NCBI RefSeq assembly: GCF_000967915.1
Contig: NC_022549.1
Location: forward strand, 310,001-374,000
DNA: 64,000 nt
Reading direction: 5' to 3'
From: Paracholeplasma brassicae
GTDB taxonomy: Bacteria; Bacillota_I; Bacilli_A; Acholeplasmatales; UBA5453
Made by a program: the position numbers and the translations under genes. Below, one piece after another: positions 36,733 through 40,596 of this stretch; the first letter of the stretch is position 1, and each line of letters opens with the position of its first letter. A model generated the notes under the pieces. That model had not been told where the DNA came from and made no database searches. It saw only the letters and a list, made by a program, of their open reading frames with translations.

Positions 36733-36760
36733 AAAAGACTTTATTATAAAGTCTTTTTTT
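36733..36760 (+). terminator. Terminator after rpsR
   Basis: AAAAGACTT/AAGTCTTTT with loop TATTATA, then a T-run. Confidence 0.85.
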
Positions 36761-36761
36761 G

Positions 36762-36790
36762 TTGTTTAAAGACGCTATTCTTGGTATAAT
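36762..36790 (+). promoter_or_regulatory. Promoter of gdpP-rplI-dnaB
   Basis: TTGTTT at 36762-36767, 17-bp spacer, TATAAT at 36785-36790 with TGG in front (extended -10). Confidence 0.7.
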
Positions 36791-36810
36791 ACAAGAAAGA
36801 AGGTGAATAC

Positions 36811-39243
36811 ATGAAACGAGTAATCAGCCTAATTGTTTCAGTTTTTGGTTTGGTATCAGTCATCATTATTGGTGTAAGAAGAGATATTTTTAGCGATTAT
36901 AGCGATAGGGTATTTTACGGTCTAATTATCGCTTTTTTAACGCTTTTTATTACCACAATTATGATTATTATCAATTTTCAAAGACAACAAAAAATCAAAT
37001 CATTGGAAAATAGACTTACCGCTTGGAGTAGTCTTTCTTATCACGTAAAACAGATTGGTGATGAGGCATTTAATGAACTTGAAATTGGTATTATTCTTTA
37101 TGATAAAAATAACATGCAAGTCAAATGGAGTAACCCGTTTGCAAATAAAATATTCAATAAAAACCTTGAAAATTTAGCACTAAGTCAATTACATGATGAG
37201 CTCTTAACGCTTGTAACGGATGATTTAGATAGTTTAACGGTTTCAATATTAGATCGTAAATACGATGCGAAAAGTCATAAAAACAATCAAGTCATCTATT
37301 TGTTTGATGTGACTGCGAGAGAAGAAATCAGACAAAAATACAAAAATCGTTCAACCGCACTTGGTATTCTCTACCTTGATAACGTTGAAGAAGCGCTTCA
37401 AGGATTTGATATTTACGAACGTTCGAACATCCGTGGGGAATACCTTGGTGTAATCACCGACTGGATTAATGAACATGATGGGTATTTAAAGCTTTACATG
37501 GAAGACCGTATGGTCATTGCGATGCACTATGAAGAACTTCAAAAAGTAATCGGCAATAAGTTCGATATTTTAAACAAGATTCGTGAAATTTCAACCAAGC
37601 ACCACGTGAGAGTGTCGGCATCGATCGGGATTGCCTCATGGGATGTCTCATTTGAAGAACTTGGTGCACTCGCACAAAATGCGATTGAACTAGCTGAAAA
37701 ACGTGGGGGGGACCAAGCGGTTGTCAACATTCAAAATGAGAAAATTGCTTACTTTGGAGGAAAATCAAACGCCTCTGAAAAGAGCTCAAGAGTTCAAGTT
37801 CGCGTTCAATCTCAAACATTCAGAGAATTAATAGAAAATTCAAAGAACGTGGTTATTATGGGACATAAGCAATCGGATATCGATGCCTTTGGGGCGATGA
37901 TTGGTATTTTCCGTATGTGTCGTGCCTCTGACATACCAGCTAGAATCGTTTACGATCCGACTGAAATCGATCAAACGGTAAGTAAGATTCTACCACTTGT
38001 CGAAGTCGAATCCAAAGACTTATTCGAATCATTAACCGCACCAAACGAAATCATACGTTTAATGGATGAAGAGACCTTACTTGTGGTGGTTGATACACAA
38101 TCGCCAAACATTGTATCTAATGCAGAGGTCCTAAGACAGTCGAAGAAGCTCGCGGTCATCGACCATCACAGACATGGCGATGTAACCTTTGAAGGGATCT
38201 TTATGTACGTTGAACCTTACGCCTCAAGTAGCGTTGAGTTAATTGCTGAAATGATGGAATTCTATCAACGTGACATCGATTTAAGACCAATTGAAGCAAG
38301 TATCATGTATGGCGGTATTATCGTTGACACCAATGAGTTTACGTATCGTACAGGGATGAGAACCTTCGGTGCTGCCGCGTATTTAAAAGAACACGAGGCA
38401 AGCTCAATTCGGGTTAAAGAATGGTTAAGACTTGATTTAAGTCGTACGTTACTACTAAATGAATTATTAAAAGACGTTATTGTCTTAAAGTCTGGGTTTG
38501 CTGCGGTCATTGACACCTCAGGTGAAATAAGGGACCGTGTGTTATTGGCTCAAGTATCATCAAAAATTCTTGAAGTCGATGGCATTCAAGCCGGCTTTAC
38601 AGTGGCTCTTGTTGGCGATGGGCTAGTGGGTATTTCAGCCAGAAGTTATGATTCAGTCAACGTTCAAATCATTATGGAAGAAATGGGTGGTGGTGGTCAC
38701 TTAAACAGTGCCGCAACCCAAATTAAACATCAAACGGTCCAAACCGTGTTTGAAGATTTAAAACAAATTTTATTAAGAGACGATGAAGGTGGAGAAAAGA
38801 TGAAAGTAATATTAACAGAAGACGTTAAAGGAAAAGGTAAGAAAGATGATGTGATTGAAGTAGCCAATGGTTATGGTCAATTCTTATTATCAAACAATAA
38901 AGCCATTGTGGCTTCAGACGATAACGTCAAAGAACTAGAAAGACAACACAAAGAGTTAATTGAAAGAGAAAAACAACACTTAGCGTTAATGACTAAGCTA
39001 AAACAAGAAATCGAGTCTAAGAGCGTCAACGTATTCATTAACATCGGAGCAGACGGTAAGTTGTTTGGTAGTGTAACAACCAAACAAATTGTTGAAGCCT
39101 ATGAAGAACAAACCGGTATTCGATTGGATAAAAAGAAAGTTGAGTTAACCTCAGAAATTAATTCAGTTGGTATTTATACCGCAACCGTGACACTACATAA
39201 GGATGTTAAAGCACAATTCGAAATTAACGTTCTAGAGAAATAA
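36811..39243 (+). CDS. gdpP: GdpP cyclic-di-AMP phosphodiesterase fused to ribosomal protein L9
   Basis: One uninterrupted 810-residue frame. Residues 1-663 form a full GdpP: two membrane helices (about 5-25, 30-52), a PAS-like segment, a degenerate GGDEF domain (about 175-310), a DHH domain (GHKQSDIDAFG, DTQS, and DHH at 451-453) and DHHA1 with GGGGHLNSAATQ. It hydrolyses cyclic-di-AMP at the membrane. Residues 664-810 are a complete L9, starting MKVILTEDVKGKGKK. There is no stop between them, but ATG 38800 has its own GGTGGAG site. Bacillus has separate genes in this order; fused versions are, from memory, annotated in Acholeplasmataceae. Whether free L9 is also made is open. Confidence 0.93.
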   Translation: MKRVISLIVSVFGLVSVIIIGVRRDIFSDYSDRVFYGLIIAFLTLFITTIMIIINFQRQQKIKSLENRLTAWSSLSYHVKQIGDEAFNELEIGIILYDKNNMQVKWSNPFANKIFNKNLENLALSQLHDELLTLVTDDLDSLTVSILDRKYDAKSHKNNQVIYLFDVTAREEIRQKYKNRSTALGILYLDNVEEALQGFDIYERSNIRGEYLGVITDWINEHDGYLKLYMEDRMVIAMHYEELQKVIGNKFDILNKIREISTKHHVRVSASIGIASWDVSFEELGALAQNAIELAEKRGGDQAVVNIQNEKIAYFGGKSNASEKSSRVQVRVQSQTFRELIENSKNVVIMGHKQSDIDAFGAMIGIFRMCRASDIPARIVYDPTEIDQTVSKILPLVEVESKDLFESLTAPNEIIRLMDEETLLVVVDTQSPNIVSNAEVLRQSKKLAVIDHHRHGDVTFEGIFMYVEPYASSSVELIAEMMEFYQRDIDLRPIEASIMYGGIIVDTNEFTYRTGMRTFGAAAYLKEHEASSIRVKEWLRLDLSRTLLLNELLKDVIVLKSGFAAVIDTSGEIRDRVLLAQVSSKILEVDGIQAGFTVALVGDGLVGISARSYDSVNVQIIMEEMGGGGHLNSAATQIKHQTVQTVFEDLKQILLRDDEGGEKMKVILTEDVKGKGKKDDVIEVANGYGQFLLSNNKAIVASDDNVKELERQHKELIEREKQHLALMTKLKQEIESKSVNVFINIGADGKLFGSVTTKQIVEAYEEQTGIRLDKKKVELTSEINSVGIYTATVTLHKDVKAQFEINVLEK
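38800..39243 (+). CDS. rplI: 50S ribosomal protein L9, nested in-frame start within the gdpP fusion
   Basis: 147 residues from ATG 38800, exactly a full L9 with an N-terminal rRNA-binding domain, a long connecting helix (about residues 40-75) and a C-terminal domain. AAGGTGGAG stands 5-6 bp upstream of this ATG, as would be expected for an independent start. L9 binds 23S rRNA at the L1-stalk base and supports frame fidelity. It may be made free by internal initiation, released by proteolysis, or only as the fusion; the sequence favours at least some internal initiation. Confidence 0.6.
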   Translation: MKVILTEDVKGKGKKDDVIEVANGYGQFLLSNNKAIVASDDNVKELERQHKELIEREKQHLALMTKLKQEIESKSVNVFINIGADGKLFGSVTTKQIVEAYEEQTGIRLDKKKVELTSEINSVGIYTATVTLHKDVKAQFEINVLEK

Positions 39244-39252
39244 GGTGAGTTT

Positions 39253-40596
39253 ATGAGTCGAGTAATGCCATTTAATTTAGAGGCGGAACAATCGGTTTTA
39301 GGTGCAGCGTTTCTAAATCCAAATGTCTTAATCGCAATTATTGATAAACTGAATCAAGAAGACTTTTTTGATCAACGCAATCAAAAAATATATGAGGCAA
39401 TGCGTCAGATTTTTCAACGTAGTGAAAAAATAGACTACACGACCGTTTCAACGGAACTTGCTCAAATGGGTGCGATGAAATCCATTGGTGTGGCGTATTT
39501 ATCCGAACTCACTGACTTCGTACCGACAACGGCTAACTTAGATGCCTATATCGACATCGTTAGGGATTATTCCTTAAAACGTATGGTGATTGAAACCGCA
39601 GGTAAAATTCTAGAGGACGGTTATAACGAAGGTATTCGTGCGACTGAATACATTGATGACGCAGAAGAAAAAATCTTTGATTTGGTCAGACGTCGTAAAG
39701 CCACTGAGTTCTTAAAAATCGACAAAGTGGTTCAAGAAGTCAGAGAAAAAGCAGAAAGCCGTAAACACCAAGGTGCAATCACCGGTCTTAAGACTGGGTT
39801 TGCCATCTTAGACAATCTAACCGCAGGCTTTCAACCAGAAGAACTATTGATTTTAGCTGCGAGACCCTCAATGGGTAAATCGGCGTTTGCGATGAACTTA
39901 GCACTTAATGCCGCAAAGTTTAATCATGGTGGTAAGGCAGGTGTGGCCGTATTCTCGCTTGAAATGTCAAACGAACAATTGGTTGGACGTATGTTATCAA
40001 GTGAAGCACGCGTTGAAAATAAAAAAATCAAAACGGGGGAATTGACCTCAAAAGATTGGCAGTTTATCGATACGGCGTCACTTTCACTGGCGAATTTGAA
40101 TATCTTTTTTGATGATTCAAGTGCGGTGACGGTTCAAGAAATTCGTTCAAAATGTCGTAAGTTAAAACAAGAAGGTCGTCTAGACTTTGTGGTGATTGAC
40201 TACTTACAGTTAATCAAAGGTGATGAACGCGGTGGATCCAATCGTCAAGAAGAAGTGGCAAAAATCTCAAGAAGCCTAAAACAAATGGCAAGAGAATTAA
40301 AGATCCCAGTCATGGCGCTATCACAGTTATCTCGTGGCGTAGAAAAACGTGACGATAAACGACCGGTGCTGGCTGACTTAAGAGAGTCCGGTTCAATTGA
40401 ACAGGACGCCGACATCGTTATGTTCTTATACCGTGGTGAATACTATAGCCATGGGCAAGAAGATAATGGTGAAACGGAAGTATCGATTGCGAAAAACCGT
40501 CAAGGCTCGGTTGGTAACGTATTAAACTTTATTTTCGAAAAACAATACTCTCGTTTTATTCCAATTGCGGAAAGAGACGACGAACCTCAAAATTAA
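39253..40596 (+). CDS. dnaB: Replicative DNA helicase
   Basis: 447 residues of the DnaB/DnaC(Bsu) family. The N-terminal collar domain starts MPFNLEAEQSVLG. The RecA-like ATPase has Walker A RPSMGKSAFA (near residue 207), Walker B FVVIDYLQL, and the DnaB signature SLKQMARELKIPVMALSQLSR. It lies 9 bp after the L9 stop, as in the Bacillus gdpP-rplI-dnaC order. No intein or insertion. Confidence 0.97.
   Translation: MSRVMPFNLEAEQSVLGAAFLNPNVLIAIIDKLNQEDFFDQRNQKIYEAMRQIFQRSEKIDYTTVSTELAQMGAMKSIGVAYLSELTDFVPTTANLDAYIDIVRDYSLKRMVIETAGKILEDGYNEGIRATEYIDDAEEKIFDLVRRRKATEFLKIDKVVQEVREKAESRKHQGAITGLKTGFAILDNLTAGFQPEELLILAARPSMGKSAFAMNLALNAAKFNHGGKAGVAVFSLEMSNEQLVGRMLSSEARVENKKIKTGELTSKDWQFIDTASLSLANLNIFFDDSSAVTVQEIRSKCRKLKQEGRLDFVVIDYLQLIKGDERGGSNRQEEVAKISRSLKQMARELKIPVMALSQLSRGVEKRDDKRPVLADLRESGSIEQDADIVMFLYRGEYYSHGQEDNGETEVSIAKNRQGSVGNVLNFIFEKQYSRFIPIAERDDEPQN

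Follow-up and report, generated by a model that had tools for sequence, protein, structure and literature searches.

A gdpP gene fused in frame to the gene of ribosomal protein L9 probably yields both a GdpP-L9 protein and free L9 in Paracholeplasma brassicae and its relatives

In the single-contig 1.878-Mb genome of Paracholeplasma brassicae, the sole gene for ribosomal protein L9 (bL9, rplI) forms the last part of an open reading frame that begins as gdpP, the gene of a c-di-AMP phosphodiesterase (Table 1). How, then, is L9 made from such a gene: as a fusion to GdpP, as a free protein, or as both? These three outcomes were already named in a first-pass annotation of the window (the whole stretch of DNA that was analyzed, 64,000 nucleotides of contig NC_022549.1, positions 310,001 to 374,000 of the forward strand). 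The conservation and decay of an internal start codon and its Shine-Dalgarno (SD) sequence, together with a hinge that is free of stops, point to both products. We propose, with a probability of about 0.78, that this is a dual-output gene. Initiation at position 36811 would produce GdpP-L9, a membrane c-di-AMP phosphodiesterase that carries L9 as its C-terminal domain, and initiation at the internal SD and ATG 38800 of the same mRNA would produce the free L9 that supplies the ribosome.

The frame is open throughout, as the first-pass annotation had recognized, and its counts of 663 and 147 codons for the two parts were exact; the interval that it gave, 38700-39243, took in the junction and L9, and the full unit extends over 36811-39243. 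The encoded protein matches the Pfam families PAS_GdpP, GGDEF_GdpP, DHH, DHHA1, L9_N (664-709) and L9_C (728-808), all above cut-off, and the NCBIfam model NF011110/PRK14538 (868 bits, cut-off of 707, with positions 60-835 of the 838 in the model covered). In the bL9 part, the helix that connects the two L9 domains is also present, as judged from Pfam and the structure model. Two hydrophobic helices (2-22 and 27-~60) are predicted at the N-terminus of GdpP from both the sequence and the model. The catalytic residues of GdpP (H352, D356, D358, D428, DHH 451-453, D506 and GGGGH) are invariant among 12 diverse fused proteins, including one from a phytoplasma, and by these motif residues the GdpP of the fusion looks catalytically active. 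This genome encodes a DAC-type cyclase, and so do 139 of the 160 genomes in the order. We rejected the idea that phytoplasmas lost c-di-AMP signaling and keep the gene for L9 alone, because the cyclase is encoded in nearly all small genomes and the catalytic residues are intact. The AlphaFold model of the fused protein shows normal GdpP and L9 folds on either side of a low-confidence joint (658-661), whose codons are those that overlap the internal SD; with a pTM of 0.38, the model gives no confident packing of L9 against GdpP.

Table 1. Features of the gdpP-rplI locus, with positions counted from the first nucleotide of the window
Feature	Position	Strand	Description and basis
Fused open reading frame GdpP-L9	36811..39243	+	810 codons and stop, uninterrupted; Pfam and NCBIfam matches
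GdpP part	36811..38799	+	663 codons: 2 transmembrane helices, PAS, degenerate GGDEF, DHH-DHHA1
bL9 (rplI) nested in the fused frame	38800..39243	+	147 codons and stop; Pfam and NCBIfam
Internal Shine-Dalgarno AAGGTGGAG, putative, for free L9	38786..38794	+	Duplex -7.7 kcal/mol; clade-wide comparison
Internal start codon ATG of free L9, putative	38800..38802	+	Start codon conserved in 196/196 genomes where the fusion is the sole L9
Hinge codons 658-661 (DEGG) between the GdpP C-terminal helix and L9 strand 1	38782..38793	+	AlphaFold2 pLDDT < 50
Hairpin and T-run AAAGACTTTA-TTA-TAAAGTCTTT-TTTT, closing the upstream rpsF-ssb-rpsR	36734..36760	+	Read from the sequence
Extended -10 element TGG-TATAAT upstream of gdpP, inferred	36785..36790	+	Read from the sequence
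Shine-Dalgarno AAGGTG of gdpP	36800..36805	+	Sequence; duplex -6.3 kcal/mol
Replicative DNA helicase gene (dnaB/dnaC type)	39253..40596	+	Follows rplI in the operon, an order shared with other Bacillota

A single mRNA is probably translated into both products, given that the hairpin and the extended -10 element precede the unit and that nothing promoter-like is seen just ahead of 38800. The stem of the hairpin is AT-rich, and the hairpin is therefore absent from the list of the terminator scan. The -35 element of the gdpP promoter candidate (TTGTTT, 36762-36767) is weak, and the promoter scan does not list this candidate. Because the scan also gave no sigma-70-like site on the + strand just upstream of 38800, an internal promoter for L9 was rejected. 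An RNA element at the locus was likewise rejected, as Rfam gave no match.

The fusion extends far beyond P. brassicae. The fused frame is present in every L9-bearing genome of the family (12) and of the order (153) and in 90 more genomes from five neighboring families; about 243 fused genomes from ten families were seen in total. Apparent short frames within the order, as in G032, G051, G072, G074, G094, G095 and G096, are found close to contig ends in every case except G107 and G118 (see below). The remark in the first-pass annotation that such fusions are annotated in Acholeplasmataceae was right and proved too narrow, since the clade also takes in Anaeroplasmataceae, phytoplasmas, Izemoplasma-like bacteria and uncultured gut Bacilli. 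We infer that Haploplasma modicum, "Ca. Phytoplasma mali", Anaeroplasmataceae and "Ca. Izimaplasma" belong to the fused clade and that Turicibacter, Haloplasmataceae and "Ca. Bathyoplasma" fall outside it. Of the best 80 named records, 60 have separate gdpP and rplI genes, which often abut or share an ATGA overlap. On a tree of GdpP and L9 (90 rows, hinge columns left out), the fused and unfused states require a single change, and by this tree the fusion has one origin, through one gain. Rows of families f11, f17, f21, f22 and f7 that carried one stop inside the frame could have been taken for recurrent fusion; at the DNA level they show adjacent in-frame gdpP and rplI genes with a stop between them. 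No reversion to the unfused state was found in the about 243 genomes.

In other Bacillota, gdpP is co-transcribed with rpl9 (PMC3711813), and co-transcription of gdpP, L9 and dnaC has also been reported for other species (PMC5575661). We propose that the ancestral gdpP and rplI abutted or overlapped by a few bases, as they do in many relatives, with the SD of rplI lying within the end of gdpP, its usual place in other Bacillota. Loss of one stop codon would then have fused the two frames and left the SD and the start codon of rplI intact.

Two genomes of genus g89 in family f9 (G238, 97% complete, and G444, 65% complete) are without L9 or a convincing GdpP and may have lost the gdpP-rplI pair altogether; other members of the same genus duplicated L9. 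One phytoplasma-size genome (G067, for which 7% contamination is reported) holds two copies of the fused gene (C1:328029 and C1:454421) with equal scores and frame lengths, either through duplication or as an assembly effect.

The first-pass annotation had also pointed out that ATG 38800 has an SD of its own, and the sequence bears this out (Table 1). Across the 196 genomes that have the fusion as their sole L9, codon 1 of L9 is ATG, GTG (19 genomes) or TTG (1 genome), and where it encodes valine, it is always GTG and no other valine codon. Given that a need for the fusion alone would let this residue drift to isoleucine, leucine or the other valine codons, its conservation supports internal initiation. 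GTG is the start throughout one group of family f2 (genera g13 and g14; e.g., L060, L064 and L065), and the TTG start occurs in one genome (L252 of G271). At the junction of another gene (L217 of G070), a one-codon insertion has placed AAA at codon 1 of L9, and ATG now lies one codon upstream; by its sequence, the start is kept through the indel.

The SD in front of this codon is conserved as well. Its duplex has a mean of -8.9 kcal/mol, against -9.0 for stand-alone rplI genes and -1.4 kcal/mol for the 3,871 other in-frame ATG or GTG codons of the fused genes. It exceeds the gdpP SD in strength in 69 of 83 genes, which fits a requirement for L9 in larger amounts. Across most of the order, the internal SD is read as GGA-GGA (Gly-Gly), and in f24, f9 and most of f16, it is shifted by one base and read as GAG-GAA (Glu-Glu). 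Because the SD lies in different codon frames in different families, it is the nucleotides that are conserved and not the amino acids. The choice among synonymous codons goes along with the SD, with a GGA fraction of 0.66 in the SD zone versus 0.27 elsewhere and a GAG fraction of 0.54 versus 0.18 elsewhere. Some phytoplasma-size genomes (e.g., those of L043-L045 and others of f2 g15) have a weak internal SD, with duplexes of -1.0 kcal/mol in G083, G086 and G087 and -2.8 kcal/mol in G068. In the single pair L049/L050 (G017 and G018), synonymous divergence is 0.12 in the hinge and 0.18 in L9 versus 0.52 in GdpP, perhaps because of the overlapping start signals.

The strongest evidence that the internal site would make free L9 comes from genomes that have another source of it. 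Five genomes from two lineages (G107 and G118 of family f3; G408, G414 and G420 of one genus of family f9) carry a stand-alone second rplI with its own SD directly downstream of the fused gene. In exactly these five, the internal start is dead: codon 1 is AAG, AAG and ACT in three of them and an ATG without SD in the other two, and the mean duplex at the internal site is -0.9. Among the 201 fused genes that were read at the DNA level, none outside these five genomes lacks a start codon. In the L9 tree, each extra rplI clusters with the fused L9 from its genomes (88 and 90). The extra copies therefore look like two separate local duplications, and a horizontal origin was rejected on the same grounds. 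That the internal site decayed exactly where a separate rplI exists suggests that its job is the making of free L9.

The same lineages bear on what the fused L9 does. Once duplicated, the fused copies still appear to be under purifying selection, with dN/dS values of 0.12 (G107-G118) and 0.33 (G414-G420) from two close pairs only. They have nonetheless lost two near-invariant residues, Gly24 and Gly90, in all five genomes, whereas both are absent in none of the 193 other fused copies; the stand-alone L9 copies of the five genomes stay much closer to the L9 consensus. We conclude that the conserved L9 residues become dispensable once free L9 has a gene of its own and that the tail itself does not. 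This finding weighs against the idea, raised by the first-pass annotation, of a GdpP tethered to the ribosome, in which the fused L9 would dock GdpP on ribosomes at the membrane and couple c-di-AMP breakdown to translation. Its appeal lies in an ancient fusion that was never lost, in a hinge that is flexible in the AlphaFold model and in the canonical L9 residues, which are all kept in the 193 aligned single-L9 fusions. The last point loses its force because the same codons must also encode the ribosomal L9, so that their conservation says nothing of the fusion, and in all five genomes with a separate rplI, a fused L9 stripped of both glycines still remains in frame. The tether is thus not supported, and we regard it as unlikely, if the best placed of the alternatives. 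A more elaborate form of it strikes us as somewhat less probable still: that in single-copy-L9 lineages, the fused L9 docks membrane GdpP on translating ribosomes or 50S precursors, with c-di-AMP turnover sensing ribosome supply and the two starts on one mRNA determining the proportion of fused and free L9. We think it more likely than ribosome docking that the L9 domain has a structural or partner-binding role as the tail of GdpP.

Alternatively, the fusion may be harmless: after a single loss of a stop codon, L9 on GdpP would have been carried along passively, and only GdpP activity and free L9 would matter. One lost stop would indeed be enough, as the two genes lie end to end or overlap in relatives. 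In addition, L9 begins 33-36 residues past GGGGH, and unfused GdpPs end after 26-46 residues, so that the hinge matches an ordinary GdpP C-terminus in length and is not an added linker. If the fused product did not matter, however, stops should recur in the hinge. Parsimony on a tree with 55 of the fused genes assigns 212 to 651 base changes to the final 5 to 15 codons of the hinge. With mutation bias left out of the calculation, 15 to 50 of these changes would be expected to produce stops without selection; we saw none. Because a stop here would leave whole ancestral GdpP and L9, the absence of stops suggests that the fused product is selected for, although stops just before the L9 start could instead be disfavored by translation control. 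The absence of reversion in about 243 genomes and the constraint on fused L9 where free L9 has its own gene also speak against passive carriage, to which we attach a low probability. The evolutionary evidence argues strongly for the dual output, with an internal start that would be used and a fused polypeptide that would be made and selected for.

Very unlikely, in our judgment, is a route in which only GdpP-L9 is translated and a protease cut near residue 663 frees L9. The exposed, low-confidence hinge of the model would suit such a cut, but this route leaves unexplained the conserved start codons, the SD conserved in nucleotides and not in frame, and the decay of both beside a separate rplI, and it would force GdpP and L9 to be equal in copy number. 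An assembly or sequencing error that hides a stop or frameshift at the junction, for which the first-pass annotation had advised a check, can be dismissed, as the same open frame recurs in about 243 independent L9-bearing genomes of ten families and no point in favor of an error was found.

Throughout this clade, including the plant-pathogenic phytoplasmas, the sole gene of a ribosomal protein thus lies inside a second-messenger enzyme. Databases therefore assign to the clade an "L9" of ~90 kDa and no L9 of normal size. As an instance of two translation starts in one gene, GdpP-L9 is clean and testable, and the two lineages with a separate rplI and a decayed internal start are its natural controls. 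For c-di-AMP signaling, it poses the question of why GdpP has carried L9 as a tail ever since the clade arose.

The closest known entity is the database family NF011110/PRK14538, "putative bifunctional signaling protein/50S ribosomal protein L9," which is the same fused protein. Its name describes one bifunctional protein and is silent on a second product or an internal start. In the literature searched, we found no papers that discuss the GdpP-L9 fusion, which is catalogued as this family; as far as that literature shows, the dual-output reading is undescribed, as are the size of the clade and its single origin, the pair of natural controls and the case against a simple tether. With the GdpP (YybT) c-di-AMP phosphodiesterases of Bacillota, the fused protein shares domain order, catalytic motifs and a place in the operon before rplI and dnaC/dnaB, but other GdpPs end before rplI, whereas here L9 is the C-terminal domain. 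The unfused gdpP-rplI pairs of Bacillus, Paenibacillus, Lactobacillus, Turicibacter and Haloplasmataceae have the same order and close spacing, often with a 4-nt ATGA overlap, and differ in the stop between the genes.

A likeness in output is found in the cas10d and cas8b genes, which also yield Cas11 through an internal in-frame start (McBride et al. 2020, as cited in PMC11899642). As far as that citation describes them, those genes likewise yield two proteins: a large one translated from the first start, and a small C-terminal one, needed in its own right, from an internal SD and start. In GdpP-L9, the signs of internal initiation are a start codon kept in 196/196 genomes and an SD kept as nucleotides, if weak in some phytoplasmas. 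Unlike the cas10d and cas8b genes as described there, the gdpP-rplI arrangement arose from the fusion of two neighboring genes. The two Cas products belong to one complex, whereas here a membrane signaling enzyme and a ribosomal protein would share a gene.
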